Made by a program: the position numbers and the translations under genes | In this document: positions 3,892 through 42,382 of the stretch, in pieces | Layout of the letters: the number at the start of each line of letters is the position of its first letter | Position numbering within the stretch: the first letter of the stretch is position 1 | Source of the DNA: Siminovitchia terrae | GTDB taxonomy: Bacteria; Bacillota; Bacilli; Bacillales; Bacillaceae_C | NCBI RefSeq assembly: GCF_003605405.2 | Contig: NZ_QYTW02000014.1 | Span: forward strand, 1 to 46,430 | Direction: 5' to 3' | DNA: 46,430 bases | Notes under the pieces: model-generated | What the model was told of the DNA's origin: nothing | The model's database searches: none | What the model saw: only the letters and a program-made list of their open reading frames with translations

Positions 3892-4081
3892 CTTCATTCA
3901 GCAGAAGTCTCCCACTTCTGTAAGTGGTGAGATGAATGCATATTGTTATTCCATTCATTGGGGGTTCAAACCCCGGCTGAATAAAGTCAAAGCCTCCGAC
4001 GGATGCCACAGATTTTCAGAGGAAATTTATCGAGCGGAGCTCGATAAAATCTGGGCGCAAATACGCCAAGGCGCATTTGAT
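3892..4081 (+). mobile_element. 190-bp IS200/IS605-like non-autonomous element, copy 1
   Basis: One of ten near-identical units. It follows TTTTAA and runs from CTTCATTCAGC to GCATTTGAT. It can fold into a hairpin with arms TCTCCCACTT/AAGTGGTGAGA, a hairpin around GGGGTTCAAACCCC, a palindrome ATCGAGC-GGA-GCTCGAT and a terminal GGCG-CAAATA-CGCC hairpin. This copy has private changes (AGTCAAAGCCTCCGACGG at the mid-junction) and lies between the M20 and MHS genes of one operon. Read-through transcription would therefore include it. Confidence 0.75.
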
Positions 4082-4148
4082 AGTTAAAGCAGGGACCTAT
4101 CAGTAATCGGTATGTAGGAGAATTTAATCAAAGAGATGGTGAGAAAAA

Positions 4149-5465
4149 ATGTCAAATGAAATAAATCACGGCAATTTAACTGAAGAACAGCGCAGCAAGC
4201 AGGCGAGAAAAGCTGGGCTTGCCAGCGTCGTTGGAACGACCATTGAATGGTATGATTTCTTTATTTATGGAACGATGTCCGCTTTGGTCTTTCCAAAACT
4301 GTTTTTTCCGGGGTCAGATCCATACATTGGGTTATTACAATCATTCACAGCACTATTTATAGGATTCCTTGCCCGTCCGCTTGGAGCCGCCTTTTTTGGT
4401 AATTTTGGGGATCGCATTGGACGTAAAGCCACTTTAGTAACGACTCTTCTGTTAATGGGAATCAGCAGTACGCTTATAGGATTATTGCCCACATACGAAA
4501 ATGCGGGTATTATTGTCACGATTCTGTTAGTATTCTTCCGTTTTTGCCAAGGCTTTGGCGCCGGGGGTGAATGGGGAGGATCAGTTGTACTCTCTGTTGA
4601 ATGGAGTGCCAAGAAGAGCAGAGGTTTAATGGGAAGCATGACGCAAATAGCCTCTCCTATTGCCTTACTCTTATCTTCAGGCGTTATTTCTCTCACTATC
4701 TTTTTGACCGGAGATCATTTTTATACTTGGGGATGGAGGATTCCCTTTCTCATTAGTATCGTGCTTGTTATAATTGGCTTTATTATTCGACGTGGAGTTG
4801 CGGATTCTCCTCAATTTACAAAAATGAAGAAAGAAAATCGTCTAGCAAAAAAACCAGTTGTAGAGGTATTTAAAAAATATCCCAAAACAATATTTTTTGT
4901 CGTTTTAGCTAGTTTAGCGCAAGGAGTTCCATTCTATGTTTTTACTACTTTTTCGATAAGCTATGGGACAGAACAACTGCAAATGGATAAACAGTTTCTC
5001 ACGAATACAATTTTGTTAGTAGCGATAGTCGAGATCATTGTGATCCTTTACGCAGCACATTTATCGGACAAGTTTAATAGACAAATCGTATTTTATGTCG
5101 GGAGCCTATTGACAATATTGGTTGCCTTCCCATTCTTCTGGCTTTTTGATACAAAAGTAACAGTATTGGTTGTTCTGGCAATGTGCTTTTCTATTGTCGG
5201 TGCCGGAACAGTGTATGGTCCTTTAGCCACATTAATTGCAGAGTGTTTCCCTGCCGAGCTTCGGTATAGCGGAACCTCGCTGGGGTATCAAATTTCAGCT
5301 GCTGTTCAAGGAGTATCTCCGTTGCTATGTGTGTATTTATTAAATACCTTTAATAGTACCGCGCCTATCAGCATTTATCTTATTGTTGCTTGTCTCATTT
5401 CTATTGTGGCTGTTGTCATGTTAAGAAAATCCACTAAAAATATGGACATGGATATGGCTGGCTAA
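4149..5465 (+). CDS. MFS transporter, metabolite:H+ symporter (MHS) family
   Basis: Twelve-helix membrane carrier of 438 residues. The N-terminus carries the MHS signature GTTIEWYDFFIYGT, followed by the loop 2-3 motif GNFGDRIGRKATL typical of proton-coupled MFS carriers and a long central loop. Relatives carry shikimate, alpha-ketoglutarate, proline/betaine or similar small acids. It probably imports the substrate of the upstream M20 deacylase and is transcribed from the same sigma-54 promoter. A 190-bp repeat now separates the two genes. The start ATG has only a moderate ribosome binding site (GGTGAG). The ligand is not predictable from the sequence. Confidence 0.88.
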   Translation: MSNEINHGNLTEEQRSKQARKAGLASVVGTTIEWYDFFIYGTMSALVFPKLFFPGSDPYIGLLQSFTALFIGFLARPLGAAFFGNFGDRIGRKATLVTTLLLMGISSTLIGLLPTYENAGIIVTILLVFFRFCQGFGAGGEWGGSVVLSVEWSAKKSRGLMGSMTQIASPIALLLSSGVISLTIFLTGDHFYTWGWRIPFLISIVLVIIGFIIRRGVADSPQFTKMKKENRLAKKPVVEVFKKYPKTIFFVVLASLAQGVPFYVFTTFSISYGTEQLQMDKQFLTNTILLVAIVEIIVILYAAHLSDKFNRQIVFYVGSLLTILVAFPFFWLFDTKVTVLVVLAMCFSIVGAGTVYGPLATLIAECFPAELRYSGTSLGYQISAAVQGVSPLLCVYLLNTFNSTAPISIYLIVACLISIVAVVMLRKSTKNMDMDMAG

Positions 5466-5504
5466 TGAAGCGTCCTTTGGTGATTGTTTGATCCAGAAGT
5501 TTAA

Positions 5505-5696
5505 CTTCATTCAGCAGAAGTCTCCCACTTCTGTAAGTGGTTAGATAAATGCATATTGGTATTCCATTCAGTGGGGGTTTTAAACCCCGGCTGAATAAAG
5601 TTAAAGCCTCCGGCGGATGCCACAGATTTTCAGAGGAAATTTATCGAGCTTAAGCTCGATAAAATCTGGGCGCAAATACGCCAAGGCGCATTTGAT
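5505..5696 (+). mobile_element. IS200/IS605-like element, copy 2 (TTAA-loop variant)
   Basis: It follows TTTAA downstream of the MHS symporter. This copy belongs to the variant with loop TTAA in the GAGC/GCTC palindrome instead of GGA, giving 192 bp. It has GGTTAGATAAATGC where most copies read GGTGAGATGAATGC, and a TTTTAA loop in the G/C hairpin. Right flank begins AAGTCAATAACTTT. Confidence 0.75.
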
Positions 5697-5719
5697 AAGT
5701 CAATAACTTTTCCAAAACA

Positions 5720-5754
5720 AGGTCTTTCTGATACGATTTCAGAAAGACCTTTTT
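5720..5754 (+). terminator. Rho-independent terminator
   Basis: Perfect 11-bp stem AGGTCTTTCTG/CAGAAAGACCT with a nine-base loop and a TTTT tail. It ends the M20-MHS operon and lies just after repeat copy 2, so the element would be inside the operon transcript. Confidence 0.85.
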
Positions 5755-5760
5755 CAAAGA

Positions 5761-6076
5761 TACGAACTATTATTTTGTAAAAATATTGATATGTCAACGT
5801 TTACAGGCTATCTCGTTGATGATGGGATAGTCTGTTTTTGGTGAGAAATGGTTAGTGAACTCCTCTGACAGAGAGGGTTTATTATATCCTTTTATCCTTG
5901 TATGAGTGAGGCATGGATATGAAATAATGCAGTTATACGTCAGATTAGTGAATGGTGAATGTAAGAAATCTTAACTTATCTAATGCTCCGTTGCTTTTGT
6001 ATGTTTTCGTGTGTTTTTTTAAAAATTGAGTTACGATGATGTTAGTCAGATTTAAATAGGGAGGAACGGAAAAAGG
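5761..6076. other. Intergenic region before the yisP homologue
   Basis: About 315 bases without a gene. A small hairpin (GGCTATCTCGTTGATGATGGGATAGTC, about 5807-5832) can form. The last 20 bases supply the ribosome binding site GGGAGGAACGG of the next gene. I see no clear -35/-10 pair. Confidence 0.4.
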
Positions 6077-6889
6077 ATGAATGCGTTTCCTAAAGATGCA
6101 ATGCGTATGCTAAAAGAGACGAGTCGTACATTTTACATTCCGATTACTTTTTTACAAAAGGAGTTAAAGTATTCGGTTGCAGCTGCTTATTTAGTATTTC
6201 GAGCAATTGATGAAATTGAGGATCATGAAGAATTGGACAGTGATGTAAAATACACGTTCTTAATGCAAGTAAGCGAATTATTTAAACAACCATTTGATAA
6301 CGAAGAATATTTAAGAATACTAGGACAGACAAAAGTTCGAATGCCCGAAGTTACACTTCGTTTAGAAGAGTGGCTGCAAGCTTGTCCAAATGATGCCCTG
6401 CCGATAATCACGGACGCTGCTTGTGAAATGGCATATGGTATGGCAAAATGGGCAAAAGCAAATTGGAAAATCCGCACACGTGAAGATCTGGATGACTATA
6501 CGTATTATGTTGCAGGACTGGTTGGAGTCATGCTTTCGGACCTTTGGGAGCACTATGGCGAAGAAAAAACAGATCGGGAACTTGCCATCGGTTATGGGCG
6601 GGGACTTCAGTTAGTAAACATTTTGCGTAACGAGAAGGAAGATTTGGTTGAACGTGGTGTAAGCTTTGTACCCGATGGGTGGACTCGTGCCGATCTATTC
6701 GTATATGCAGATGAAAACCTGGCAAAAGCAGATGAATATATGAAGTCTCTCAAAAAGAAAAGCATTCTATTATTCTGCCGTCTGCCGCTTGCTCTAGCTC
6801 ACAAAACGTTAAAAGCGATGAAAGAGGGACGCGAAAAAATGACACGTGCAGAAGTAGAACAAACGGTGGAAGAAGTTCAAATCGATTAG
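6077..6889 (+). CDS. yisP: Squalene/phytoene synthase family protein, YisP-like
   Basis: All-alpha prenyl synthase fold protein of 270 residues. The first aspartate-rich motif is intact (DEIED, residues 45-49). In the second, the usual NILRDxxED reads NILRNEKED, with Asn185 in place of the first Asp and Asp189 kept. The VAGLVGVMLSDLW helix (about 146-157) is typical of the family. In B. subtilis the homologue YisP was shown to act as a farnesyl diphosphate phosphatase that makes farnesol, linked to biofilm formation, rather than as a head-to-head synthase. The weakened second motif here fits that. Good ribosome binding site GGGAGGAACGG. The next gene is fni, another isoprenoid enzyme, with a repeat element between them. 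Function is by homology. Confidence 0.8.
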   Translation: MNAFPKDAMRMLKETSRTFYIPITFLQKELKYSVAAAYLVFRAIDEIEDHEELDSDVKYTFLMQVSELFKQPFDNEEYLRILGQTKVRMPEVTLRLEEWLQACPNDALPIITDAACEMAYGMAKWAKANWKIRTREDLDDYTYYVAGLVGVMLSDLWEHYGEEKTDRELAIGYGRGLQLVNILRNEKEDLVERGVSFVPDGWTRADLFVYADENLAKADEYMKSLKKKSILLFCRLPLALAHKTLKAMKEGREKMTRAEVEQTVEEVQID

Positions 6890-6971
6890 TTCCATGTTTG
6901 CTGGTGTAGAAAGGCCGCTTTTCTATTTACAATTTGCCGGCTTCAACATGGAATGGTGGCGAAATCTTTAA

Positions 6972-7161
6972 CTTCATTCAGCAGAAGTCTCCCACTTCTA
7001 TAAGTGCTGAGATGAATGCATATTGGTATTCCATTCAGCGGGGGTTAAAACCCCGGCTGAATAAAGTTAAAGCCTCCGGCGGATGCCACAGATTTTCAGA
7101 GGAAATTTATCGAGCGGAGCTCGATAAAATCTGGGCGCAAATACGCCAAGGCGCATTTGAT
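6972..7161 (+). mobile_element. IS200/IS605-like element, copy 3
   Basis: It follows TTTAA and ends only 22 bases before the likely fni start at 7184. The element therefore sits directly against the translation initiation region of fni and may have displaced its original promoter. Hairpin differences from the consensus: CTATAAGTGC in the first loop and GGGGGTTAAAACCCC in the second, the latter still pairing. Confidence 0.75.
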
Positions 7162-7183
7162 AGAATCTTGATGGTAAAGGCAG

Positions 7184-8221
7184 GTGTTGGCGTTGGCCAA
7201 CTCAATCGAGCAAAGAAAATCTGAACATATTCAAATTACGTTGAACGAAAAGGTTACCGGGGAGTCGATTTCAACAGGATTGGAGTCGTTTACGTTCATC
7301 CACAATGCGCTCCCCGAAATCGATTTTGACGAAATCTCCATTGAAACTAAATTTCTCAGTTTTGATTGCAAAACGCCGTTTCTCATCAGTTCCATGACGG
7401 GCGGGACGGCCCTCGCCGAGACGATTAATCGGAACCTGGCAACAGCGGCTGAAGAAAGGGGCTGGGCGCTTGCGCTCGGATCCACCCGGGCGCTGCTCGA
7501 CAGCGATGGACATTCCTCCTCTTTCCTGATGAGGAAGTACGCACCGAGTGTCCCGATCATTGCAAACTTAGGCGCTGTTCAATTAAATTACGGATACGGT
7601 GTCGAGGAATGCAGGAAAATTATCGGGATAACCGAGGCGGATATGCTCGTCCTTCATTTGAACAGCATCCAGGAAGTGATTCAGGAAAAGGGAGATACGA
7701 ATTTTAAAGGGTTATTAAAGAAGATTGAACAACTGTGCAGCACGCTGGAGGTTCCGGTCGGGGTCAAGGAAGTTGGATGGGGAATTGATGGTCAGATAGC
7801 CAGAAAGTTAAGTGAGGCCGGCGTTGCGTTTATCGACGTCGCCGGAGCGGGAGGAACTTCCTGGAGTCAGGTGGAAAAGTTCCGCGCTAAAGATCCAATC
7901 CGGCGGGTTGCCGCAGAAAGCTTCAGCGAATGGGGGATTCCGACGGCGGAATCGATCAGATTAGTCCGCGGAGAGATTGGGAACTGTCCGCTGATTGCCA
8001 GCGGCGGGATGCAGACGGGGCTGGACGGGGCCAAGACCATTGCGTTGGGTGCTGACCTGGTTGGATTCGGGCGGTCCATTCTGAAAGAAGCGACCCAGAG
8101 CCCGGAAGATGTCCTTGAAGTAATGAAAATCCGGGAAATGGAACTTCGGATGGCGATGTTCGGAATCGGGGCGCCGACGATTTTGGAATTAAAGGGCACT
8201 CCGCGCCTGACGGAACGATGA
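7184..8221 (+). CDS. fni: Type 2 isopentenyl-diphosphate delta-isomerase
   Basis: FMN- and NADPH-dependent isomerase interconverting isopentenyl and dimethylallyl diphosphate, in the cytoplasm. The N-terminus RKSEHIQI, the FMN-binding segment SSMTGGT (about residue 69), NLGAVQLNYGYG, the Gln of LNSIQE, VKEVGWG, DVAGAGGTSW and SGGMQTGLDGAK are all family motifs. Length 345 is normal. The start is uncertain: GTG at 7184 has AAAGG four bases upstream, and TTG at 7187 or 7193 are in frame. The gene is visibly GC-richer than its neighbours, which suggests a different origin. It lies next to the yisP homologue, and a terminator follows it closely. Repeat copy 3 abuts its start. Confidence 0.9.
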   Translation: MLALANSIEQRKSEHIQITLNEKVTGESISTGLESFTFIHNALPEIDFDEISIETKFLSFDCKTPFLISSMTGGTALAETINRNLATAAEERGWALALGSTRALLDSDGHSSSFLMRKYAPSVPIIANLGAVQLNYGYGVEECRKIIGITEADMLVLHLNSIQEVIQEKGDTNFKGLLKKIEQLCSTLEVPVGVKEVGWGIDGQIARKLSEAGVAFIDVAGAGGTSWSQVEKFRAKDPIRRVAAESFSEWGIPTAESIRLVRGEIGNCPLIASGGMQTGLDGAKTIALGADLVGFGRSILKEATQSPEDVLEVMKIREMELRMAMFGIGAPTILELKGTPRLTER

Positions 8222-8246
8222 TAATGGTAAGAAGATCTCGTAAAGC

Positions 8247-8280
8247 AAAGTCACGCCTTATGTAAAGGGGCGTGACTTTT
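8247..8280 (+). terminator. Rho-independent terminator of fni
   Basis: Stem AAAGTCACGCC/GGCGTGACTTT with loop TTATGTAAAGGG and a T-tail, 26 bases after the fni stop. Confidence 0.85.
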
Positions 8281-8328
8281 GGGTTGTTTAGGAACTATAA
8301 AATTCCATGCCTGTGGGTAACTTGTTAA

Positions 8329-8516
8329 CTTCATTCAGCAGAAGTCTCCCACTTCTGTAAGTGGTGAGATGAATGCCTATTGGTATTCCATTCAGTGGGG
8401 GTTCAAACCCCCGCTGAATGAAGTAAAGCCTCCGGGATGCCACAGATTTTCAGAAGAAATTTATCGAGCTTAAGCTCGATAAAATCTGGGCGCAAATACG
8501 CCAAGGCGCATTTGAT
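8329..8516 (+). mobile_element. IS200/IS605-like element, copy 4 (TTAA-loop variant)
   Basis: Follows GTTAA. At 188 bp it is slightly shortened at the mid-junction (GAAGTAAAGCCTCCGGGATG) and carries the GAGC-TTAA-GCTC palindrome. It lies between the fni terminator and another degenerate repeat starting at about 8529. Confidence 0.72.
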
Positions 8517-8528
8517 TCAGATTATTCT

Positions 8529-8690
8529 ACGTCCAGCTCAAGCGCCTATCGACTAGCAGACTTCATGCCCTACGATAAGTCAACATCGGCTCCGACGTAC
8601 AGGAAGTACTAGTGCAAGCAAAGCGACAGGACGTCGCGATTTGAGCCTGCCGACGGACAGGACGTCCTCTTGACCAAAAAAACTCATATA
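8529..8690. repeat. Degenerate GC-rich dispersed repeat
   Basis: A GC-rich patch unlike its AT-rich surroundings. It begins CGTCCAGCTCAAGCGCC and contains two copies of GACAGGACGTC (GCGACAGGACGTCGCG near 8618-8640 and CGGACAGGACGTCC near 8653-8667). Shorter relatives lie at about 35,150 and, inverted, at about 45,800. No coding frame is convincing. It resembles small dispersed repeats that I recall from Bacillaceae genomes, but I cannot confirm the family here. The remainder up to 8863 is AT-rich and shows only the next gene's ribosome binding site (GAGGAG). Confidence 0.55.
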
Positions 8691-8863
8691 TTTCAGAGTT
8701 CGAATCTTAATTATATTAAAAACAGCTAAAATGCCTTGGCATAGCTTTTCAACAAAATTAGGATACTTTAATAATTCCATAAGAAAAAAATTAAAGGTAA
8801 AATCAATTGATAGAAATCATTTCTATTTATAATTTTGTACAAATGAGGAGACGGGTGATGTGA

Positions 8864-9226
8864 ATGTTTTGGAGAAAACGAAACAAAAAGGAACAGGAAG
8901 TTGAGCCAGTAACTGATCTTTCTTCGAGTATCTATACTGTATCTGAAGAAGACTTATCTCCAGGCTTTGAAGAGGTTTATGTTCCTTTTCTCACTATTTC
9001 GCTTGACGGAGAGGATGTACTGGTCTTTGCCCGGTTTATTGACGGGACAACGATGATCTCGCTTGAGGAGGCATGCGATGATGTAGTCCAATATGTCGAA
9101 CGTAGGTATAAACAGGGCCGGTTAGCTTACCGCCGACTATCATACAACAGCATATCATCGGAAGAAAAGGAGGCGCTCGACCGCATCGAGCAGCAGCTGA
9201 GTCAATGGATTCCGAAGCAGGATTAA
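8864..9226 (+). CDS. Hypothetical protein, 120 residues
   Basis: Not recognised. A basic N-terminus (FWRKRNKKEQE) is followed by an acidic protein without signal peptide or membrane segment; the C-terminal half is probably helical (EEKEALDRIEQQLSQWIP). The ATG has a good ribosome binding site (GAGGAGACGGGTG). The coding character is good: acidic and basic residues alternate naturally and codon use matches the neighbours. It is followed immediately by a decayed-looking stretch, so it may once have had a partner gene. Confidence 0.65.
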   Translation: MFWRKRNKKEQEVEPVTDLSSSIYTVSEEDLSPGFEEVYVPFLTISLDGEDVLVFARFIDGTTMISLEEACDDVVQYVERRYKQGRLAYRRLSYNSISSEEKEALDRIEQQLSQWIPKQD

Positions 9227-9610
9227 GTGATAGGAGAATTGGATGCAGAAGAAACAGAGGAACGGGCAGCACGATGTAGAGATGCAGATCAAGTATTTCA
9301 GTTCATATTCGAATCATTTGTTTGAGCTATCAGGGCTTTCTTTGCAGCGGTCCTGTATGCTCTTGTTCATGATCAAATTCCTAGCTAGCCCGGATATAGG
9401 TTCTTTTCCTCGCCGCACGAAACGTGCTCAGTTGCCGGAGCAACTGCGTTTGGAGGGTGGAGCGATACTCTTTCGTCTCTTAAAGGCAAAGATGTCAAGA
9501 GCAGTAATGTCTTGGGGAAATTAGCACTTTCGTCGCCACGGTATCGCGGCTACCTGTATATGATGATGGTACTGCTGAAAGGGTATATCGAATTGGTTTG
9601 GAATAAATGT
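9227..9610 (+). other. Gene-poor stretch with possible coding remnants
   Basis: No intact gene is convincing. A frame opening with GTG directly after the previous stop reads VIGELDAEETEERAARCRDA and ends at about 9325. Another segment near 9540-9606 reads VSRLPVYDDGTAERVYRIGL before a stop. Both look more protein-like than chance and could be the ends of one decayed gene. A 93-codon frame at 9243-9524 has unusual composition and I do not accept it as a gene. Confidence 0.35.
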
Positions 9611-9676
9611 GAAATAAACCACATAATCGAATGGTTTTTAATACATGATTAACATAAATTTGTAAATTGATTTATA

Positions 9677-9714
9677 TTGACGGGCTTTCCGCATAACACT
9701 ACAATGAGTAATGT
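9677..9714 (+). promoter_or_regulatory. Sigma-A promoter with BlaI-type operator
   Basis: TTGACG at 9677-9682 and TACAAT at 9700-9705 with a 17-base spacer. A dyad ACACTAC-AATGA-GTAATGT at 9696-9714 overlaps the -10 box. BlaI/MecI proteins bind this kind of TAC-N5-GTA dyad, so autorepression of the operon is likely. Confidence 0.8.
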
Positions 9715-9728
9715 GGGGAGGGGCAATC

Positions 9729-10142
9729 TTGAAAATCTGGAAGTTTAAAATAAACGAAAGTGGATTGAACCGTTTTTTTGGTCCTCTCGAGGCAAAAATT
9801 ATGGACATCTTATGGTGTCATGATGAAATGACAATTAAAGATGTTCAGCAATCTCTGGAACGGGAAAAACCGATGAATTTCAACACAGTGATGACTGTTA
9901 TGAATCGATTAGTTGAAAAGGGAGTTCTTCAAAAGAGGACAGAAGGAAGGTCGTATGTTTATAGGCCCGTTCAATCAAGAATGGAGTTTTTAAATGCTCA
10001 GTCAAAAGAAATGACAAATGAACTGATGGATGAATTTGGAAATGTTGTCGTAAGTCATATGCTGGATGCACTTGAAGAAGCTGACGATGATCTTGTCGCT
10101 AAACTTGAGAACAAAATTAAAGAATTGAAAAAAGGTATGTAA
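9729..10142 (+). CDS. BlaI/MecI/CopY family repressor
   Basis: Winged-helix repressor of 137 residues. The DNA-binding part (LEAKIMDILWCHDEMTIKDV, then NFNTVMTVMNRLVEKGVLQK) is typical, with a helical C-terminal dimerisation tail. I take the TTG at 9729 as start because GGGGAGGGG lies just upstream; the in-frame ATG at 9711 would overlap the operator and has no ribosome binding site. It is followed three bases later by an M56 metalloprotease gene, as in blaI-blaR1 pairs, and its operator type recurs before bdbD. That suggests it controls all four genes to 12,091. In the family, the repressor is released by proteolysis triggered by the M56 partner; whether this holds here is inference. Confidence 0.88.
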   Translation: MKIWKFKINESGLNRFFGPLEAKIMDILWCHDEMTIKDVQQSLEREKPMNFNTVMTVMNRLVEKGVLQKRTEGRSYVYRPVQSRMEFLNAQSKEMTNELMDEFGNVVVSHMLDALEEADDDLVAKLENKIKELKKGM

Positions 10143-10145
10143 CAA

Positions 10146-10994
10146 ATGTCTAAACGTCAATCATCTCTCATGCTTGTCGTATCCTTTGCCATTTCAGGAA
10201 CAATTTTGTTTCAAATGGGGTTATACGTAATCTCAATGTTAGCAGGATGGAATGTGAAGTTTAACCTTGTTGCCGTATGCCACAGTTGGCTAAAAGCGTT
10301 TGGACTGTCATTTCTTGAGTATGTACTTGATGGACTGGTCATTTATACGCTGCTATTTTTACTATGGAAAATCGGCTTGCAATTGATTCAAACGACCAGA
10401 ATGAAAAAACGATTTCAGCAATACAAAGGGGAAAAACTCACAATCGAAATGAGTCAGGCATTTGGAATTGGAAAAGAAGAACTGTCTGTTCTTTCACATC
10501 CCACTCCCATGGCGTTTACGATGGGATTTGTGAGTCCTAAAATCATCGTTACAACAGGTTTAATCAATCTCTTAAATCATGATGAGTTGCGAGCAGTTAT
10601 TTCTCATGAAATGTATCATAAAGAAAATCGTGATCCGTTAAAAGTCTTTTTGCTTTCACTCAGCTCATCGATTATGTGGTATATCCCCATTCAGAAGTGG
10701 TTTCATCATAAATACAGTGTCATTCAGGAAATATTGGCAGATGATTTTGCCATTAAACAACAAGAGACATCTGTGAACCTAGGCAATGCTCTGTTGAAAA
10801 TGTTAAAAGTAGGCAAGCAGGAAAAGATGCCTTTTACTTATGTCTCATTCGCAAATACATCGTTAAATCATCGAATTGAATATATCCTGAATCCATTAAA
10901 GGAAGTGCAACTGCAGCTTCCGTTTAAAATAGCATTAATTTCGTTGCTCATTTTCAGTCTCATTTGCGGACTTTTTATTTACGCACTTGCGTAA
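10146..10994 (+). CDS. M56 family membrane metalloprotease
   Basis: BlaR1/MecR1-like integral membrane protease of 282 residues. The zinc motif HEMYH (His154, Glu155, His158) fits HEXXH, with the third ligand probably in the EILADDFAI segment. Hydrophobic segments lie at about 8-32, 58-80 and 262-281, with a further one after the HEXXH helix. The penicillin-binding sensor domain of BlaR1 is absent; the protein ends after the last membrane segment. The signal it senses is therefore not a beta-lactam bound in the classic way. Given the downstream thiol oxidases it may respond to envelope thiol or redox stress; this is inference. Confidence 0.85.
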   Translation: MSKRQSSLMLVVSFAISGTILFQMGLYVISMLAGWNVKFNLVAVCHSWLKAFGLSFLEYVLDGLVIYTLLFLLWKIGLQLIQTTRMKKRFQQYKGEKLTIEMSQAFGIGKEELSVLSHPTPMAFTMGFVSPKIIVTTGLINLLNHDELRAVISHEMYHKENRDPLKVFLLSLSSSIMWYIPIQKWFHHKYSVIQEILADDFAIKQQETSVNLGNALLKMLKVGKQEKMPFTYVSFANTSLNHRIEYILNPLKEVQLQLPFKIALISLLIFSLICGLFIYALA

Positions 10995-11011
10995 ATTTTT
11001 TTACCCAACAC

Positions 11012-11026
11012 ACTACGTATCGTAGT
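11012..11026 (+). promoter_or_regulatory. Second BlaI-type operator, before bdbD
   Basis: Perfect inverted repeat ACTAC-GTATC-GTAGT between the M56 gene and bdbD. It shares the TAC-N5-GTA core and spacing with the dyad over the blaI promoter. I see no strong -35/-10 pair next to it. Confidence 0.7.
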
Positions 11027-11046
11027 TTAAAATTAGGAGTGTGGAC

Positions 11047-14074: not shown

Positions 14075-14106
14075 AACAGAGCAATGAAAATACCATTGCC
14101 GTCTAT

Positions 14107-14190
14107 ATACCATCCCTGCGCTAGCATTATCTAACAGGTTCAAAGGGTCCGGAACGAATCCACTCTCAGCCAAAAGCTCCCCCTGGTACG
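14107..14190 (-). ncRNA. TPP riboswitch (THI element)
   Basis: Minus-strand sequence contains the conserved blocks GGGGAGC, GGCTGAGAGTGG, ACCCTTTGAACCTG and AGATAATGCTAGCGCAGGGA in the right order, followed by thiT. Thiamine pyrophosphate binding would lower ThiT synthesis. Confidence 0.97.
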
Positions 14191-14413
14191 CCGATTCAAT
14201 TTCTAATCTATATTGTAGTGGATTTTGAAAGAATTGCAATCTTTGATTTGTAGGTTATACTGACGTTTTCAATGAACTGGGAAGACAGATCAATGGGGGC
14301 TTGGGGTCTTCAAAGCATGGGTCAAAGCTTTGGATTGCCCGCATTTGAAGCCATCTCTTTTTGTTATAATAGATGAACATAGAATCTTTGTGCATTCATG
14401 GAGGTGGGTAACT

Positions 14414-19601: not shown

Positions 19602-20274
19602 GTGAGAAAGCTTCCTATATATGGTGGGCTGCTTTTGATGGTAGTGTTAACTTCATTCAGCAGAAGTCTCCCACTTCTGTAAGTGGTGAGATGAATGCCT
19701 ATTGGTATTCCATTCAGTGGGGGTTCAAACCCCGGCTGGATAAAGTTAAAGCCTCCGGCGGATGCCACAGATTTTCAGAGGAAATTCATCGAGCGGAGCT
19801 CGATAAAATCTGGGCGCAAATACGCCAAGGCGCATTTGATTATTGGCTGGATGTGACTCATCTGATTCATCCGAAGTAAATGACGGTACTAAGGAGCAAG
19901 ACGAATTACAGGCTGGCATTCAAACGATCGGAAAAGCACAAAGAATTGAGGTGCGGTCTGATTCTGATGATAACGATTCCGTTTTACGGTCAATAACTGA
20001 TAAAGCCGATATAGAAATATTTATCGAACAATTAAAAATGAATGAGTGGGAATACGCGTCTGCTCTTCCTGAAGAGGCTAAAAAAAAGTATGAGTATATT
20101 ATTTTGCAGGAGGATACTATCAAATTGGGTGAAAAAGAGGATAAGGACGCTTCTTTACATGAAGCGGCACGAATCATATCATACGAAAATAGTCCCTATG
20201 TGACACTGAAGGTTGCGCTGATTAAAATCACTATGAAAATCCCGGATGAGGCCGCAGAATACATAAATCAATAA
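19602..20274 (+). pseudogene. Lipoprotein gene split by repeat copy 6
   Basis: The 5' part (GTG at 19602, ribosome binding site AGGGGTG) encodes a signal peptide start VRKLPIYGGLLLMVVL. Then a 190-bp element intervenes, and the 3' part (19841-20274) begins in frame at ILAGC, a perfect lipobox, and continues as an acidic protein ending DEAAEYINQ. Joining 19650 to 19841 gives a 160-codon open frame. As it stands, translation from the GTG enters the element and stops after ten codons, so the lipoprotein should not be made. The mature part has no family I recognise. Confidence 0.8.
19651..19840 (+). mobile_element. IS200/IS605-like element, copy 6, inside a lipoprotein gene
   Basis: Follows GTTAA. 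Removing exactly this 190-bp unit restores the reading frame through the signal peptide and lipobox. That fixes the element's ends at CTTCATT and CATTTGAT and shows that no target bases were duplicated, as expected for IS200/IS605-type single-strand transposition. Confidence 0.85.
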
Positions 20275-35058: not shown

Positions 35059-35074
35059 GTAATGATCCTGAAGG

Positions 35075-35107: not shown

Positions 35108-35145
35108 ATTCGTCGAAGATAAGGAACGACTAAGTTTTGAGTTAT

Positions 35146-35245: not shown

Positions 35246-35359
35246 TTGTAGTTTTACCGCGTCGCAAAACAGCTTGATGCATACTCAGTGATGTAATTGC
35301 GGTTCTTGTATTTTTCGCAGAGCTGGGTTTCTTACGCTTTTCTATTAAGAGGTGAAGTA

Positions 35360-36022
35360 ATGATTGGTAGATTTGATTGGGCAGGTGTCATCGAATTCCT
35401 GCCGGATTTGACAAAAGGATTGTATTACACGCTGCTCATTTCAGTAGTCGGGCTTTTAATCGGTTTTGCTTTAGGGGCTCTCTTTGGAATCGGAAGAGTG
35501 GCTAAGACTAAGATTTTTTACATCATTTCCACTGTGTACGTTGAAGTCATCCGCGGTACTCCTGTACTTGTCCAGGCTATTTGGATTTTCTTTGCCCTTC
35601 CTTTGGTTATCGGAAAAAACCTTGACTCCATCACAGCGGGGATTATTGTTATTGCTGTTAATTCAGGGGCATATATAGCTGAGATTGTACGGGGAGCTGT
35701 TCAATCAATAGATAAAGGCCAGATGGAGGCAGGGAGGTCTCTTGGGCTGAATCATCAGCAGACGATGCTCCATGTTATTTGGCCACAGGCTTTTAAACGA
35801 ATGATTCCGCCACTTGGGAACCAATTTATTATCAGTATCAAGGATACGTCTTTATTGTCTGTCATTCTCGTCCCTGAACTGATTTTTCAAGGACGTTTGA
35901 TTGCAGCCAACCACTTTAATGCAGTGGAAATTTATACGACAGTAGCTTTATTTTATTTAGTCATCACTTTTAGTTTATCAATGGTTCTACGCTTTTTTGA
36001 AAGAAGGTTGGAAACAGAATGA
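35360..36022 (+). CDS. Amino acid ABC transporter permease (GlnP/HisM type)
   Basis: Membrane subunit of 220 residues with about five helices. The N-terminal [23 protein letters not shown] and the cytoplasmic coupling segment [28 protein letters not shown] (EAA motif) are typical of the polar amino acid family. The start is the ATG at 35360 with GAGGTGA upstream; the longer open frame to 35297 is not supported. Its last codons overlap the ATPase start by four bases (ATGA). Confidence 0.92.
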
Positions 36023-36741
36023 TACAAGTCAACAACTTGCATAAGAAATTCGGAGATCTCGAGGTATTAAGGGGGATTACTTGTGAGATCGAGCTGCAGG
36101 AAGTAGTCTGTGTCATCGGGCCGAGCGGTTCGGGAAAAAGCACCTTTCTGCGCTGTTTAAACATGCTGGAGGAAATGACGGACGGGGAAATTGTCATCAA
36201 CGGACATCACTTGAAAGACCCTACAACAGATATCAATGCAGTACGGACGGAAGTAGGGATGGTTTTTCAGCAGTTTAATCTGTTCCCTCATAAGACGGTT
36301 TTGGAAAATATTACTTTGGCGCCGAAAAAAATACGAAAAATAAACAGTGAGGAAGCGAAAGCTCTTGCTATGGAGCTGCTTGAAAAAGTCGGGCTTGCGG
36401 ATAAGGCAAACAGCTATCCAAGGCAATTATCAGGGGGGCAGCAGCAACGGGTGGCCATTGGACGTGCTCTTGCGATGCAGCCCAAAGTTATGCTGTTCGA
36501 TGAGCCGACTTCAGCTCTTGACCCCGAACTCGTTGGGGAAGTACTAGAAGTAATGAAACAGTTGGCATTTGAGGGCATGACGATGGTGGTGGTCACTCAT
36601 GAAATGGGATTTGCAAGGGAAGTAGCTGACCGAGTCATATTTATGGATGGTGGTGTCATAGTAGAGGAGGATGTCCCATCTCAAATTTTTACGAAACCTA
36701 AATCGGATCGAACCAAGGCTTTTTTAAATAAAGTTTTGTAA
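36019..36741 (+). CDS. Amino acid ABC transporter ATPase (GlnQ type)
   Basis: Cytoplasmic ATPase of 240 residues. Walker [10 protein letters not shown]-loop [10 protein letters not shown], signature LSGGQQQR, Walker [15 protein letters not shown] and the switch His in VVVTHEM are all intact. The [13 protein letters not shown] form is usual for polar amino acid importers. It is translationally coupled to the permease by a four-base overlap. A repeat element follows 11 bases after its stop. Confidence 0.95.
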
Positions 36742-36752
36742 GGGGTGTTTAA

Positions 36753-36941
36753 CTTCATTCAGCAGAAGTCCCCACTTCTGTAAGTGGTGAGATGAATGCA
36801 TATTGGCATTCCATTCAGTGGAGGTTCAAACCTCGGTTGAATAAAGTTAAAGCCTCCGGTGGATGCCACAGATTTTCAGAGGAAATTTATCGAGCGGAGC
36901 TCGATAAAATCTGAGCGTAAATACGCCAAGGCGCATTTGAT
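36753..36941 (+). mobile_element. IS200/IS605-like element, copy 8, with paired substitutions
   Basis: Follows GTTTAA right after the ATPase gene. In the second hairpin GGGGTTCAAACCCC has become GAGGTTCAAACCTC: both arms changed so that pairing is kept. CTGAAT has become TTGAAT, and the terminal hairpin reads GCGTAAATACGC. One base is lost in the first stem. The copy is degenerate in places but structurally conserved. Confidence 0.75.
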
Positions 36942-36969
36942 AAACAGGACTTTGATTGGAAATAACTTG

Positions 36970-36998
36970 GTCAGGAGTTGTTGCTTCTGACTTATTTC
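36970..36998 (+). terminator. Weak terminator downstream of copy 8
   Basis: Stem GTCAGGAG/CTTCTGAC (one G-T pair) with loop TTGTTG, followed by TTATTTCTT. It probably ends the ABC transporter transcript, which would then include the repeat. Confidence 0.55.
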
Positions 36999-37155
36999 TT
37001 ATATGACGAGAATGTGAATGGAACCACTTTATTTTGATCCCAAGGGACTAGGAAGAAGTATCCAGTTTTTGCCCCATCGTGCTATGATAGAACATAGAAA
37101 ATAAGGAGCTTTTTTGGGAGTTCAGTCACTTTAGCATCTATGGAGGAGAAGTAAA

Positions 37156-39312
37156 ATGGGTAAATCAGATTCGGCAGTTGAAGAGGTATCGAGGCTTTAT
37201 CTTCATGACTTTGAACTATCCGATCAGACGGATTTTGAACAAGTTTTGAAGGAACTAGCCTATATCAAGTATGCATTGGATCAGTCTTCAATTGTTGCGG
37301 TCACTGACCAACGGGGAAAAATACTTTATGTCAACGACTTGCTTTGCAAAATATCAAAATTCAGCCACGATGAATTGATCGGGCAGGACCATCGGATTTT
37401 AAATTCCGATTACCATTCAAAGGAATTCTTCAAGAATATGTGGGCGACCATTGGAAAGGGACATGTCTGGGAAGGTGAGATCCGCAATAGGGCAAAAGAT
37501 GGTTCATTTTATTGGGTGGATACGACCATCGTTCCTTTTTTAAATGAAAAAGGTAAGCCTCACCGATATGTTGCGATTCGGAATGATATCACTGCCCGAA
37601 AGGAAATGGAAGAAGAGATCAGAAGAAGTGAAGAGAGATACCGTCTTATTACTGAAAATTCCTCTGACTTGATCTCGACAGTTGATACGGAGGGAAATCT
37701 TTTGTATCTGTCACCATCTCACGGTTCGTTATTGGGGTATGACTTGGATGAAATAAGAAAAGGAACCATTTTTGACCTAATATACGAAACAGACCAGGAA
37801 GAAGTAAAGGAGACAATAGAACAGCTCTGGGGAAAGAAGAAGATCACTTCCCAGCTTGAATTTCGTTTAAAAACCAGTTCTGGAAGCTGCATTTCCGTAG
37901 AGGCCAAGATGAATGTCATCTTGAACGATAACGGTGATATCAGGAAGGTAATGCTCGTCACAAGGGATATAACTGAACGAAAAAAATCGGAACAGAAAAT
38001 ATACCATTTGGCTTTTCATGATACATTGACAGACCTGCCGAATCGAAGACTGTTTATGAATGAGCTGCAAAAGACAATTGCTAAAACAAAAAGGCCTTCG
38101 AAAGTAGCCGTCATGTTCATTGATTTGGATCGCTTCAAATATGTGAATGATTCCTGGGGCCACGATGCCGGAGATTACATACTCATGGAAGCGGCTCACC
38201 GCATCAAACAATCACTTCGATCAACAGACTTTGTGGCAAGAATTGGCGGGGATGAATTTACGGTCCTTCTTGATAATATTGAAAATGAAGCGGATGTAAA
38301 ATTACTGGTGGAAAGAATTCAAGAGAGTTTTGAGGAGCCAGTGCACATTTTCGAGAAGGATATTTTCCTATCATGCAGCATTGGAATTGCTATTTATCCA
38401 GAAAATGGAAAAAATGCTGATGAACTATTAAAGCGGGCGGACACGGCCCTCTATGTGGTGAAAGAACGAGGAAGGAGCGGTTATGCTCTTTTTGATGCCG
38501 ACATGGAAGAGAAATCATTGGAGCGTATCTTATTAGAAGTTGAATTGAGAAAGGCTGTAGAGCGGGAACAATTCTATTTAGATTACCAACCGAAGATTGA
38601 CTTTTCTAAAGGGACGTTGGTTGGCATGGAGGCTCTGGTTCGCTGGAACCATCCGGACCTGGGCAGGGTACCTCCTAACAAATTCATCCCGATTGCAGAA
38701 GAAACAGGCTTAATCATCCCAATTGGAGAGTGGGTGCTTCGTGAAGCCTGCAAACAGAATAAAAAGTGGCAAGATATGGGTTACTCGCCGATTACCGCGT
38801 CAGTGAATGTTTCAGTCCGACAGTTGGAACAATCGGGCATACTGAACAAAGTGATTGAAGTTTTAAATGAAACAGGACTTGATCCGAAGTGGCTGGAGCT
38901 TGAGGTCACCGAAAGTGTCTTTGCCGACCTTGAAAATGCCGCAGCCATTTTGGAGGAAATCCGGGGTTTTGGCGTTAAGATTTCAGTGGATGATTTCGGT
39001 ACAGGTTACAATTCTTTCACCTATATTAAGCATTTGCCTGTGGATACAGTGAAAATTGATTCTTCTTTTATAAGGGATATACACCAAAACGTCGAAAGCA
39101 AAGCGATTGTCAACGCCATTTTGACACTTGCAGATACATTGAACATTAGTGTGATTGCTGAAGGAGTTGAAAGCAAAGAACAGCTTGAACACCTAAACAA
39201 AGGCGGTTGCATTCAGGGACAAGGATACCTGTTCAGTAAGCCGGTATCCAATGAACTGTTTGAAAAGTATTTCCGGGATTCCAACTTATTGTTTCCAGAA
39301 GAGATTGTTTAA
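37156..39312 (+). CDS. PAS-PAS-GGDEF-EAL cyclic di-GMP protein
   Basis: Sensor protein of 718 residues that makes and/or degrades cyclic di-GMP. Two PAS domains (about 35-155 and 165-280) are followed by a GGDEF domain with intact IGGDEF (about residue 363) and an EAL domain with EALVRW (about 491), [14 protein letters not shown] and DDFGTGYNS. No membrane segments are visible, so it is cytoplasmic. Both catalytic signatures look intact; which activity dominates cannot be read from the sequence. Ribosome binding site GGAGGAGAAG. The stop codon TAA lies inside the TTTAA target of the following repeat element. Confidence 0.93.
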
Positions 39313-39504
39313 CTTCATTCAGCAGAAGTCTCCCACTTCTGTAAGTGGCGAGATGAAAGCATATTGGTATTCCATTCAGTGGGGGGTCAAACCCCGGCTG
39401 AATAAAGTTAAAGCCTCCGGCGGATGCCATAGATTTTCAGAGGAAATTTATCGAGCTTAAGCTCGATAAAATCTGGGCGCAAATACGCCAAGGGTGCATT
39501 TGAT
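39313..39504 (+). mobile_element. IS200/IS605-like element, copy 9 (TTAA-loop variant)
   Basis: Inserted directly after GTTTAA, where TAA is the stop codon of the GGDEF-EAL gene, so the protein is unaffected. It carries the GAGC-TTAA-GCTC palindrome and an extra base near the right end (AAGGGTGCATTTGAT). It would be part of the gene's 3' untranslated region. Confidence 0.75.
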
Positions 39505-39565
39505 AAAAGAGCTGAAACAAAGCTTTTTAAAATGAATAAAACGCATGAAATATGATTGGAAAATC

Positions 39566-39940
39566 TGTGGTTACCCCCAAAAGTTAAAGTTTTTATTATG
39601 CAGCTGATTGGCTGGATTGAGTTTTGTATTCGACTGGGCTCAATCCAGCCAATTTTTCTTTTGATCGTACATGGTTATACCAGTAGATATATTCCTCAAT
39701 CCTTTTTATAAATTCTTCATAGCTTACTAGTTCTTCCCCATAATACATTTCTTGCTTTAAAATCCCAAAGAAATTCTTCATTGAAGCATTGTCTGCGCAG
39801 GTTGCTTTACGAGAAATGCTTTGGAATACGCTATTTTTCTTTAATGTCTTCACCCATTGATTGTGCTGGTAATGCCACCCTTGGTCAGAATGAATGGTGG
39901 TGCGGTAGGGCTTATCTCTCAGCTCTACAGTATCCATTTG
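39566..39940 (-). mobile_element. IS3-family remnant with the 3' end of orfB
   Basis: A minus-strand frame (39596-39937) encodes the last about 113 residues of an IS3-type DDE transposase: IHSDQGWHYQ (second Asp), then DNASMKNFFGILKQEM (catalytic Glu), and the family's ending RIEEYIYWYNHVRSKEKLAGLSPVEY. The first Asp, the helix-turn-helix and orfA are missing. The likely element end, TGTGGTTACCCCCAAAAG, is at about 39,566. It is a dead fragment. Confidence 0.85.
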
Positions 39941-40171
39941 TTAGGCGAAACTTTTCCGATGTCATCCCTAAGAGGCGTTCTTGATTTATGATCATCTGAA
40001 AAGTGACCTTCCTTTATCTTTATTAAAGATTTATCCCCTCTAGACTTATCCTAAACGAGTTTATAAAAATGAGTGAATATATCAAGGAGATGTCCCTGTC
40101 CTTATTTTGTTCTAAATGATGATCTTGTCCCATATGCTTTTGTGAGGAAGCCTTGGCAGAGGGGAGATCGC
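39941..40171. other. Region between the IS3 remnant and cwlD
   Basis: No gene is supported. It probably contains the rest of the IS3 decay and the cwlD promoter; the last bases give AGAGGGGAG as the cwlD ribosome binding site. An open frame from 40073 leading into cwlD has no start signal. Confidence 0.4.
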
Positions 40172-40882
40172 ATGCGAAAAAAAACAAAAGCTATTTTTTT
40201 CATCATCGGTGCGGCGCTCATATTTTTAATTGTCCAATATCAATTCATTCCGCGGGATTCGTTTGATACATGGAATCTTCCGCTGACTGGAAAAGTAATA
40301 TACCTAGATCCAGGACACGGCGGCCCTGATGGAGGGGCTGGCGACAGCGAAGCGCTTGAGAAAGACATCGCCCTTGAAGTTGCTTTTAAACTGCGGGATT
40401 ATCTGCAGGGGCAGGGGGCGCTGGTTTTGATGACACGGGAAACCGATGCCGATTTGGCAGATCCAGATATGAAGGGGCTCAGTAAAAGGAAAACGGCTGA
40501 TTTGAAAAAAAGACTTAAATTGGTCAATGAATCTGAGGCGGACTTATTTATAAGTATCCATTTGAATTCTATCCCTTCTCCAAAATGGAGAGGTGCACAG
40601 ACCTTTTATTCCCCACATTTAGTAGAAAATAAGCGGGCGGCCAAATTGATTCAGGAAGAGCTGGTTGTCAGCCTGGAAAACACGGATCGTCAAGCAAAGA
40701 TTATTGAAAATATATATTTGATTAAACACTCCAAAAAACCAGCGGCCCTGGTTGAAATTGGTTTTTTATCGAATCCAGGGGAGCGAGCCGCTTTAATGGA
40801 AGATGGTTACCAAGAAAAAGTGGCAGCGGGGATTTATCGAGGGGTTATGAGGTATTTCACGAAGGAAAAATTAAAAGACTAA
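40172..40882 (+). CDS. cwlD: Spore cortex N-acetylmuramoyl-L-alanine amidase CwlD
   Basis: Zinc amidase of 236 residues that removes the peptide side chain during spore cortex synthesis, the first step toward muramic delta-lactam. An N-terminal membrane/signal segment (about 5-24) precedes an amidase_3 domain with LDPGHGGPDGGAG (His ligand), EKDIALEVAFKLRDYL (Glu ligand), SIHLNS (His ligand) and EIGFLSNPGE (catalytic Glu). The start ATG 40172 follows AGAGGGGAG. Order cwlD-mrp-gerD-kbaA-pdaB matches B. subtilis. Confidence 0.95.
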   Translation: MRKKTKAIFFIIGAALIFLIVQYQFIPRDSFDTWNLPLTGKVIYLDPGHGGPDGGAGDSEALEKDIALEVAFKLRDYLQGQGALVLMTRETDADLADPDMKGLSKRKTADLKKRLKLVNESEADLFISIHLNSIPSPKWRGAQTFYSPHLVENKRAAKLIQEELVVSLENTDRQAKIIENIYLIKHSKKPAALVEIGFLSNPGERAALMEDGYQEKVAAGIYRGVMRYFTKEKLKD

Positions 40883-40928
40883 GGTGTATGGGGAAGTTCA
40901 TTACACAATCGTTTTTTTAAAAGGTTGC

Positions 40929-40956
40929 AAAATCCACTTTTTCATAGTGGATTTTT
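40929..40956 (+). terminator. Terminator of cwlD
   Basis: Stem AAAATCCACT/AGTGGATTTT with a seven-base loop and a T-tail, about 47 bases after the cwlD stop. Confidence 0.85.
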
Positions 40957-41057
40957 ACATTCTCTAATCTTTCCTCATGGAGCGTCTTTTCATAGAAAAC
41001 AATACGAATATGTTATACTGAATCAAAAGTGCAATTCGATAAAGGACGGTGCAAAAA

Positions 41058-42122
41058 TTGGTTACTGAACAACAGGTGTTCAATATTCTGAAAGAATTAA
41101 AAGATCCGCTTTTACATAAGACATTAGAGGAAACAAATGGGATTACAGAAGTGAAGATCAAAGAGGAGAAGGAGCATGTCAGTGTAAAAATAGCGTTGGC
41201 TAAGACCGGAACACCGGAACAGATGCAACTTCAATCCAAAGTCGTACAGCTTCTAAAAGAGGCGGGAGCTGCTACGGTTGGAATCCGATTTACAGATCTT
41301 CCAGAAGAAGAGTTGGAGAAACACCGCACAGCTGGAGATATGCCCGATGAGACGGCAGGAGGCTTGCTTTCTCCTGACAGCAAAACGACATTTATCGCGA
41401 TTGCCAGTGGAAAAGGCGGAGTTGGAAAGTCAACCGTTTCTGTCAATATGGCTGTTGCATTGGCGCGTCTTGGCAAAAAGGTTGGGCTTGTTGATGCCGA
41501 TATTTACGGATTCAGTGTTCCGGATATGATGGGAATTACTGAACGGCCGGTTGTCAGAGGAAAAAAGATTCTTCCTGTGGATCGGTTTGGCGTAAAGGTT
41601 ATTTCCATGGCGTTCTTTGTGGAGGACAATGCCCCGGTGATTTGGCGTGGTCCGATGCTCGGGAAAATGCTTAACAACTTCTTTACTGAAGTGGATTGGG
41701 GAGATTTGGACTACTTGCTTCTTGATCTTCCTCCAGGAACGGGAGATGTGGCCCTCGACGTCCATACAATGCTGCCAAGCACAAAGGAAATCATCGTGAC
41801 AACACCACATCCAACTGCAGCATTTGTTGCAGCGCGTGCCGGAGCGATGGCACTTCGAACGAACCACGAAATTTTGGGTGTTATTGAAAATATGTCCTAT
41901 TTTGAAAGCAAGTTGACGGGTGAGAAGGAATACGTTTTTGGACAAGGTGGGGGAGAAAAGCTTGCAGAAGAGCTTCGCACAGAGCTTCTCGGAAAGCTTC
42001 CGCTTCAGCAGCCTGATTGGAATGAAGAGGATTTTGCACCGTCCATTTATGATGAAGCACATAAACTGGGACAGATTTATCGAGAAATTGCAGAAAAAGT
42101 TATTCATGAATTGGAAAAGTAA
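41058..42122 (+). CDS. salA: Mrp/NBP35-type iron-sulfur carrier ATPase (SalA)
   Basis: P-loop protein of 354 residues. An N-terminal MIP18-like domain (about 1-80) precedes the Mrp ATPase: deviant Walker A GKGGVGKS, DADIYGFSVP, and DLPPGTGDVAL. The paired CxxC cysteines of many Mrp proteins are not seen near the C-terminus. Relatives load iron-sulfur clusters; in B. subtilis the gene at this locus is salA, a regulator of exoprotease genes. I take TTG at 41058 as start; GTG at 41049 is in frame but sits within the ribosome binding site AAAGGACGG. The locus order supports the assignment. Confidence 0.9.
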   Translation: MVTEQQVFNILKELKDPLLHKTLEETNGITEVKIKEEKEHVSVKIALAKTGTPEQMQLQSKVVQLLKEAGAATVGIRFTDLPEEELEKHRTAGDMPDETAGGLLSPDSKTTFIAIASGKGGVGKSTVSVNMAVALARLGKKVGLVDADIYGFSVPDMMGITERPVVRGKKILPVDRFGVKVISMAFFVEDNAPVIWRGPMLGKMLNNFFTEVDWGDLDYLLLDLPPGTGDVALDVHTMLPSTKEIIVTTPHPTAAFVAARAGAMALRTNHEILGVIENMSYFESKLTGEKEYVFGQGGGEKLAEELRTELLGKLPLQQPDWNEEDFAPSIYDEAHKLGQIYREIAEKVIHELEK

Positions 42123-42153
42123 GGAGCTTCAGTGGGAAGGAAGCCACCAACAA

Positions 42154-42192
42154 AAAAGCTGGCATTGGATATCGATCAATGCCAGCTTTTTA
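42154..42192 (+). terminator. Terminator of salA, used as an element target
   Basis: Perfect 15-bp stem AAAAAGCTGGCATTG/CAATGCCAGCTTTTT. The T-run continues into TTAA, immediately after which repeat copy 10 is inserted. Confidence 0.9.
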
Positions 42193-42194
42193 AC

Positions 42195-42382
42195 TTCATT
42201 CAGCAGAAGTCTCCCACTACTGTAAGTGGTGAGATGAATAACATATTGGTATTCCATTCAGTGGGGGTTCCAACCCCGGCTGAATAAAGTTAAAGCCTCC
42301 GGCGGATGCCAGATTTTCAGAGGAAATTTATCGAGCGGAGCTCGATAAAATCTGGGCGCAAATACGCCAAGGTGCATTTGAT
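42195..42382 (+). mobile_element. IS200/IS605-like element, copy 10
   Basis: Inserted in the T-tail of the salA terminator (TTTTTAA). 188 bp, with loop change GGGGTTCCAACCCC, an altered spacer (GATGAATAACATATTGG) and a three-base loss (GATGCCAGATTTT). It ends eight bases before the gerD stop on the other strand. Confidence 0.75.

Follow-up and report, generated by a model that had tools for sequence, protein, structure and literature searches.

Transposons of the IS200/IS605 family, such as IS608, ISDra2 and IS605, insert on the 3' side of a fixed tetra- or pentanucleotide, do not duplicate their target and have hairpin ends (PMC7290912). IS608 and ISDra2 have been reported to insert into the lagging-strand template, with an orientation along replication (PMC5371812), whereas PMC7290912 reports no such orientation preference for the IS605 elements of Halanaerobium. 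Palindrome-associated transposable elements (PATEs), described in Haloquadratum and Halanaerobium (PMC3119063, PMC7290912), have no transposase and no inverted terminal repeats; their descriptions mention near-terminal palindromes related to IS605 and core deletions between direct repeats. The subject of the present analysis is an element that shares these PATE traits, the insertion behaviour and hairpin ends of the IS200/IS605 family and the orientation of IS608 and ISDra2, and that is present in ten units in a 46,430-nt stretch of Siminovitchia terrae DNA (the window, i.e. the whole stretch that was analysed). We consider it probable that this element is a non-autonomous, PATE-like single-strand transposon of the IS200/IS605 type, 190 nt long, gene-less and with subterminal hairpins. 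It differs from PATEs, as these are portrayed in the cited accounts, in that its left palindrome alone is IS605-like, in its length of 190 nt with extra hairpins, in its hundreds of copies and in its strong strand bias. Unlike IS200/IS605 elements, it is gene-less, its right end is unmatched and its left and right hairpins differ.

The element also resembles bcr1 of the Bacillus cereus group, a short mobile Bacillaceae repeat with a T-rich pentamer (TTTAT) and many copies, for which a maximum of 130 integral copies and the existence of plasmid copies are reported (PMC6542083). Unlike bcr1, which was compared by description and not by sequence, a window copy had no match at 1e-5 among plasmids, and the same was true for phages. 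REP sequences and their RAYT enzymes (REPtrons) are, like the element, high-copy, structured and strand-specific, and possibly moved by a single-copy Y1 enzyme. REPs are, unlike the element, only 20-50 nt long and preceded by a tetranucleotide that is mostly GTAG, and E. coli TnpA-REP is stated to cleave at CT rather than at a motif such as TTTAA (PMC8266576). A literature search at the level of titles and the first lines of abstracts yielded no description of the present repeat.

All ten units lie on the + strand of the window and are 188-192 bp long (Table 1). Each of them starts with CTTCATTCAGC and ends with CATTTGAT (in degenerate form, the end motifs are CTTYATTCAGC and GGCGNATTTGAT), and the 3' terminus of the element is TTTGAT. 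An earlier sequence-only reading of this DNA had reported ten same-strand units of about 190 bp, and all of them were found; nine of the ten starts that it gave were exact, whereas the last unit starts at 42194 and not at 42195. It was also right that TTAA, mostly as TTTAA, precedes the units (TTTAA for 8 of 10, GTTAA for those at 8329 and 19651) and that the window holds no tnpA or tnpB. Indeed, the 4 PF01797 (Y1) and 15 PF07282 (TnpB) matches in the source genome (G000; 5.30 Mb, 68 contigs) all fall outside contig C6, on which the window is located. The - strand of the window had zero matches for two 27-base element patterns. Several matches of short patterns to this strand lie inside the copies themselves, because the copies contain inverse repeats.

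Borders and orientation were determined in a sample of 34 stretches of the source genome (706 kb, many picked for known copies), which contained 96 full copies. The pentamer before the 94 copies with an exact left end was TTTAA in 75 cases, ATTAA in 8, GTTAA in 3 and a different one in 8. For the 89 copies of which both ends were exact, the base frequencies at positions -5 to -1 were T.88, T.97, T.98, A.98 and A.98, and there was no further fixed position among 30 flanking bases per side. The element is thus inserted 3' of a specific tetra- or pentanucleotide, as is the rule in the IS200/IS605 family.

A second trait of this family, the lack of target duplication, had likewise been claimed in the sequence-only reading, which proposed a comparison with empty sites in relatives. 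Both flanks were found in a congener (G001-G005 are of the same genus) for six of the ten window copies, namely those at 3892, 5505, 6972, 36753, 39313 and 42194. The claim held at 6972, the sole clean empty site among the six: G002 (ATCTGTAA/GAATATTG) and G001 (ATCTGCAA/AGAGAATT) are empty without duplication where the source genome reads ATCTTTAA, the 190-bp element and AGAATCTTG, and G003 has a shortened copy without hairpins H1, H2 and part of H3. The site at 39313 is ambiguous, and the others were occupied, partial, diverged or not alignable. In addition, an insertion near the RAYT gene that is common to G001 and G003 and absent from the source genome provides a near-clean empty site. At the site of a second insertion, the source genome is without the element body and reads CATTTGAT, which is perhaps a remnant.

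Copies without H1 and H2 were encountered in three genomes (L037:9367, L030:7911, L058:1803 and L164:13475-13606). Some of these end near a CATTCAG direct repeat and resemble the core deletions of PATEs.

The orientation of the copies was strikingly uniform, since 93 of the 96 full copies were on the G-rich strand as judged by GC skew, with nearly all copies in a stretch facing the same way; of the three exceptions, two lie next to each other in L027. In this phylum, the strand on which G is in excess is presumably the leading strand, and the direction of replication was inferred from GC skew, not from a mapped origin. This bias cannot be explained by target supply, since free intergenic TTTAA motifs are equally frequent on the two strands (558 versus 557). 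Nor can it be explained by transcription: 90 copies had an open reading frame (ORF) on both sides, ORFs being called with a simple script, and the skew was still followed by all 5 of them that lie between two lagging-strand genes and by 30 of the 32 between genes of mixed direction. The orientation therefore follows replication as read from GC skew, not transcription, and it runs along the lagging-strand template, as in IS608 and ISDra2; such a bias is what insertion into this template predicts. In five related genomes, stretches of at least 9 kb contained 40 distinct copies, 39 of which agreed with the skew. On the large contig of G032, which like G022 is of the same family, all 5 full copies in the sampled stretches agreed with the local skew, and 21 of the 24 listed matches could be placed in two arcs delimited by eye, one of + matches that runs from about 4.06 Mb through 0.35 Mb and one of - matches between 1.34 and 3.84 Mb, whereas 3 did not fit. 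With hundreds of insertions, a skew linkage of 97% and a neutral target control, this looks like the trace that insertion at replication forks would leave across a whole genome, and the element could help to read the direction of replication in draft genomes.

Positions 9-46 of the element hold its left-end hairpin, and in a copy from G156 these positions matched four plasmids, from Clostridiaceae, Leptotrichia, Fusobacterium and Mycoplasmatota, at 91-95% (E 2e-5 to 1e-3). The match in Fusobacterium animalis has TTTAA on one side and an annotated tnpB on the other, and in the Mycoplasmatota plasmid it precedes a gene annotated as transposase; on the Clostridiaceae and Leptotrichia plasmids no annotated tnpB was present beside it. 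In the source genome, a similar hairpin whose loop is longer was recognised by eye at 11-12 nt from the pentamer and upstream of tnpB (L016, with TTTAT, and L017, with TTTAA). The left end is thus homologous to that of IS200/IS605 elements. The sequence-only reading had made its proposal depend on elements of this family with matching ends; such elements were found for the left end and not for the right one, which has a terminal hairpin of its own (CAAAT-CGC..GCG-ATTTG).

The first half of the element had been described as omega-RNA-like. This description is not supported: the part in question holds the left-end hairpin, and the resemblance would be accounted for by the resident tnpB elements, both ends of which carry stems of a similar kind. 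The related view that the repeat is a tnpB-linked homing element with its own RNA as omega-RNA has in its favour the 15 TnpB domain matches in the source genome and the similar hairpin stem. Nevertheless, omega-RNA scaffolds end at the right end, and a scaffold reaching the right end next to a guide was not recognised: judged by eye, the right end of the element is unlike those of the resident tnpB elements, whose hairpin behind tnpB ends in GTTCAA (L014, L015, L016 and L018) or GTTCAT (L017). We therefore regard a homing element of this kind as very improbable.

The fold of copy 6 was far better than that of shuffled sequences (z of -5.3 as RNA and -5.5 as DNA). RNAalifold on a MAFFT alignment gave a weak consensus fold of -5.7 kcal/mol, much poorer than the single-copy fold, and pairing was counted on the named structure in its place. 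Among 74 copies from six genomes, 92.3% of the cells paired, as compared to 30-44% for slid versions. H1, H3, H4 and the right-end hairpin R were 93-97% paired (H1 93%, R 96%), and H2 was poorly conserved (76%); with H1 and R, the element has the subterminal hairpins that are typical of IS200/IS605 elements. Compensatory, double-sided pair changes were present in 10 rows for H1, 13 for H3, 14 for H4 and 15 for R, the latter being a swap from A-T to T-A. A fifth change of this kind, recognised by eye, is a swap of the first pair in the apical stem of H4 (TTCGAG..CTCGAA for ATCGAG..CTCGAT) in 12 of 15 copies of more distant genomes, and little covariation was seen in the outer H4 stem and the 5' closing stem. 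Likeness to the source genome consensus was 0.92 at the 5' end, 0.98 at positions 92-112 and 0.98 in the right-end hairpin for the 15 distant copies, and 0.96, 0.84 and 0.74, respectively, for 18 G032 copies. Covariance models of Rfam did not match any element copy at their gathering score; the best match at E up to 10 was a hammerhead model on the other strand (E 0.14; 19 bits, the cut-off being 48.5).

A guide function was considered for positions 95-100 (GTTAAA), which lie 5' of the outer H4 stem and include the complement of TTTAA. This idea found no support, because copies with a GTCAAA allele have the same targets (TTTAA in 21 of 26, versus 43 of 55 for the GTTAAA allele).

The strong structure, with positions 92-112 among the most conserved parts, would also suit a different route that depends on single-stranded DNA, for instance a reverse-transcribed RNA that enters at replication forks, and two element-bearing genomes are without a PF01797 match. 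Such a route is in our opinion quite improbable, since the left end matches left ends adjacent to tnpB, with the same target and a similar spacing. In the transposon reading that we prefer, the element would insert as single-stranded DNA into the lagging-strand template, directly 3' of TTTAA and without target duplication. We infer that the link of the skew is to replication and that the mobilising enzyme would be of the Y1 HUH class; it would be supplied from elsewhere, its source possibly being lost from G000.

Candidates for this enzyme were sought among the Y1 genes. The four Y1 matches in the source genome represent an IS200-like gene whose ends differ from those of the element as judged by eye, two broken copies and one RAYT-like gene, and Y1 matches were present in 13 of 17 further genomes (4 of 6 and 9 of 11). 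Element copies near a Y1 gene were observed upstream of a broken IS200-like copy at a distance of about 0.8 kb (L010 of the source genome), about 1 kb from the RAYT gene in G001 and G003, and as a partial inverse copy in G254. The proposal of a non-autonomous IS200/IS605 derivative, made before this analysis, was borne out in part: it held for the non-autonomous nature, the left end, the TTTAA target and the lack of duplication at the clean site. No match was found for the right end, and no Y1 gene had both element ends within 1.5 kb.

It should be noted that a number of observations weigh against this reading. The site at 39313 is unoccupied in both G001 and G003, but the matches to its two flanks overlap there by 14-16 nt, and this could be a short duplication. 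Only 12 of 15 full copies in the more distant genomes follow the local skew, those against it being in G276 (L220), G230 (L230) and G317 (L234). The profile matches of the left ends in L016 and L017 are weak (E 0.21 and 1.2), no counterpart of the right end was present among the IS200/IS605 elements found, and the left and right hairpins of the element differ from each other. The end hairpins of IS608 are identical, while dissimilar ends have been reported for IS605 elements of Halanaerobium (PMC7290912). None of the Y1 loci of the source genome and the further genomes has element ends around the gene within 1.5 kb, and G156 and G276, which have full-length copies, had no PF01797 match. All but one of the double-changed rows are G032 copies, so that they amount to a single set of four double changes within one lineage, and shuffles attained the number of double-changed pairs in 47 of 500 cases. 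Lastly, the copies in the source genome have a median of 8 differences from the consensus over about 190 positions, and nearest neighbours differ by at least 1, which implies that the burst is not fresh and that its driver may be lost. The covariation in a single lineage does not change our assessment, which rests on the borders, the empty site and the orientation. The element behaves as a non-autonomous IS200/IS605 transposon would and fits the PATE class, with two reservations: the right end is unmatched, and for the mobilising enzyme there is a candidate class.

The intact RAYT-like (TnpA-REP) Y1 gene in the source genome (L072; G000:C13:34510-35064) occupies a locus that G000, G001 and G003 have in common. 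If this resident gene were the mobiliser, the element would belong to a REPtron-like system with unusually long elements. RAYT genes of at least 70% identity were found in 5 of 34 genomes of the family (G000, G001, G003, G022 and G032), at other loci in G022 and G032, and all five have element matches at E 1e-30 or better, which 6 of the 34 genomes have; G002 and G004, of the same genus, have neither. However, in 299 genomes of the order (a drawn sample that does not include all family members), RAYT was found in 5 (E up to 1e-70) and the element in 13 (E up to 1e-10, G000 being one of them), and the two coincide just in G000 and G093, with a partial element in the latter. Moreover, G005 has elements and no RAYT match, and G024 has weaker near-full copies and a RAYT of just 36% identity. 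No element lies within 1.5 kb of the RAYT gene in G000, unlike the usual location of REPs, and the copy that lies close to it in both G001 and G003 goes back to a single, shared insertion; the element is also 190 nt long and its consensus has no GTAG, unlike the short palindromes of REP/RAYT systems. RAYT as sole mobiliser thus fits inside the family, but the results across the order led us to reject it as a rule of general validity. We consider the RAYT explanation unlikely; if it is true, the element would be a tractable Gram-positive test case for RAYT/REP mobility with a defined target and precise borders.

Cognate repeats of other RAYTs were sought by self-comparison of sequence from G022 (220 kb), G059 (60 kb) and G017 (40 kb), which showed no comparable 190-bp family, only local tandem or simple repeats and an approximately 80-bp repeat in G022. 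The latter (L112:10172-10251, L106:4084-4162; three overlapping self-matches) lies at one place about 2.6 kb from the RAYT gene and is perhaps the cognate repeat of this RAYT.

A further scenario is a chimeric single-strand transposon in which the left end is of the IS605 type, whereas the right end and the conserved core come from elsewhere, this chimera having been taken over in part of its range by a domesticated RAYT, yielding a Gram-positive REPtron-like system of 190-nt, TTTAA-targeted elements in hundreds of copies. We judge this scenario to be improbable.

The number of copies in the source genome was at least 477, counted over 5.30 Mb with one 27-mer of the element at up to 3 mismatches (272 on the + and 205 on the - strand). 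The backward control gave 0 matches, so chance can be excluded, and the element is indeed present in hundreds of copies genome-wide, as the sequence-only reading had considered. A loose BLAST search had given 608 candidate copies at first look, and a 13-mer count (626 + 617) was unusable as copy number because it also matched an inverse near-repeat within the element. By the 27-mer, the mean density is about 1 copy per 11 kb, and the window is about 2.4 times denser. Two copies directly adjoin each other on contig C7. Across G000 to G005, the 27-mer copy numbers were 477, 40, 0, 106, 0 and 11. This range from none to hundreds within one genus is difficult to reconcile with a host regulatory or terminator-like repeat that is under selection and not mobile, as are the clean empty site and the independence of orientation from transcription. 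For such a repeat speak the structure, the mostly intergenic location (15 of 96 copies overlap a called ORF of at least 100 aa by more than 60 bp) and the finding that an ORF has its stop codon within the target in 10 of the 90 copies with both neighbours; all in all, we find a host repeat hardly credible.

First-look copy figures from the search of the 299 genomes were loose. G156 was thus dismissed as a high-copy genome without Y1, as it had 56 loose first-look copies and about 216 kb of further stretches were free of copies (nine tiny contigs left out); an apparent tandem copy in this genome was merely about 12 nt. In viral contigs, of which short pieces were seen, the right end occurred in 3 stretches and the core in 1, and no autonomous element copy was seen in these pieces. 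Two viral contigs (L251 and L256) have a left-end-like TTTAAC..GAAGTCCCCCACTTC, and no transposase was recognisable by eye in the next 3 kb.

Table 1. Element copies in the window and hairpins of copy 6. Coordinates refer to the window, and positions to the element.
Feature	Coordinates	Strand	Remarks
Copy 1, 190 bp, after TTTAA	3892..4081	+	Site not alignable in the empty-site comparison
Copy 2, 192 bp, after TTTAA	5505..5696	+	Site also occupied in G003
Copy 3, 190 bp, after TTTAA	6972..7161	+	Unoccupied in G002 and G001; G003 holds a shortened copy
Copy 4, 188 bp, after GTTAA	8329..8516	+	
Copy 5, 190 bp, after TTTAA	17903..18092	+	Flanked by two minus-strand genes
Copy 6, 190 bp, after GTTAA	19651..19840	+	Reference for folding and alignment
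Copy 7, 190 bp, after TTTAA	22651..22840	+	
Copy 8, 189 bp, after TTTAA	36753..36941	+	Partial copy at the G001 site; G003 diverged
Copy 9, 192 bp	39313..39504	+	TTTAA holds the stop codon of a 718-aa ORF (37156-39312)
Copy 10, 189 bp, after TTTAA	42194..42382	+	Site also occupied in G003
H1, left-end hairpin, IS200/IS605-type	19666..19692 (positions 16-42)	+	Copy 6
H3, hairpin	19712..19741 (positions 62-91)	+	Copy 6; one pair double-changed in G032 copies
H4, hairpin	19763..19816 (positions 113-166)	+	Copy 6; one pair double-changed in G032 copies
R, right-end terminal hairpin, CAAAT..ATTTG	19817..19838 (positions 167-188)	+	Copy 6; one pair double-changed in G032 copies

Besides the element, the stretch at 8540-8660 of the window, with GACTAGCAGACTT and AGCGACAGGACGTCGC, has similar text in locus L019 and is likely to be another interspersed repeat. 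The window furthermore contains a thiamine pyrophosphate (TPP) riboswitch at 14096-14193 on the - strand and a cluster of eight tRNA genes at 45117-46343, with a Bacillaceae-1 RNA at 45789-45854.

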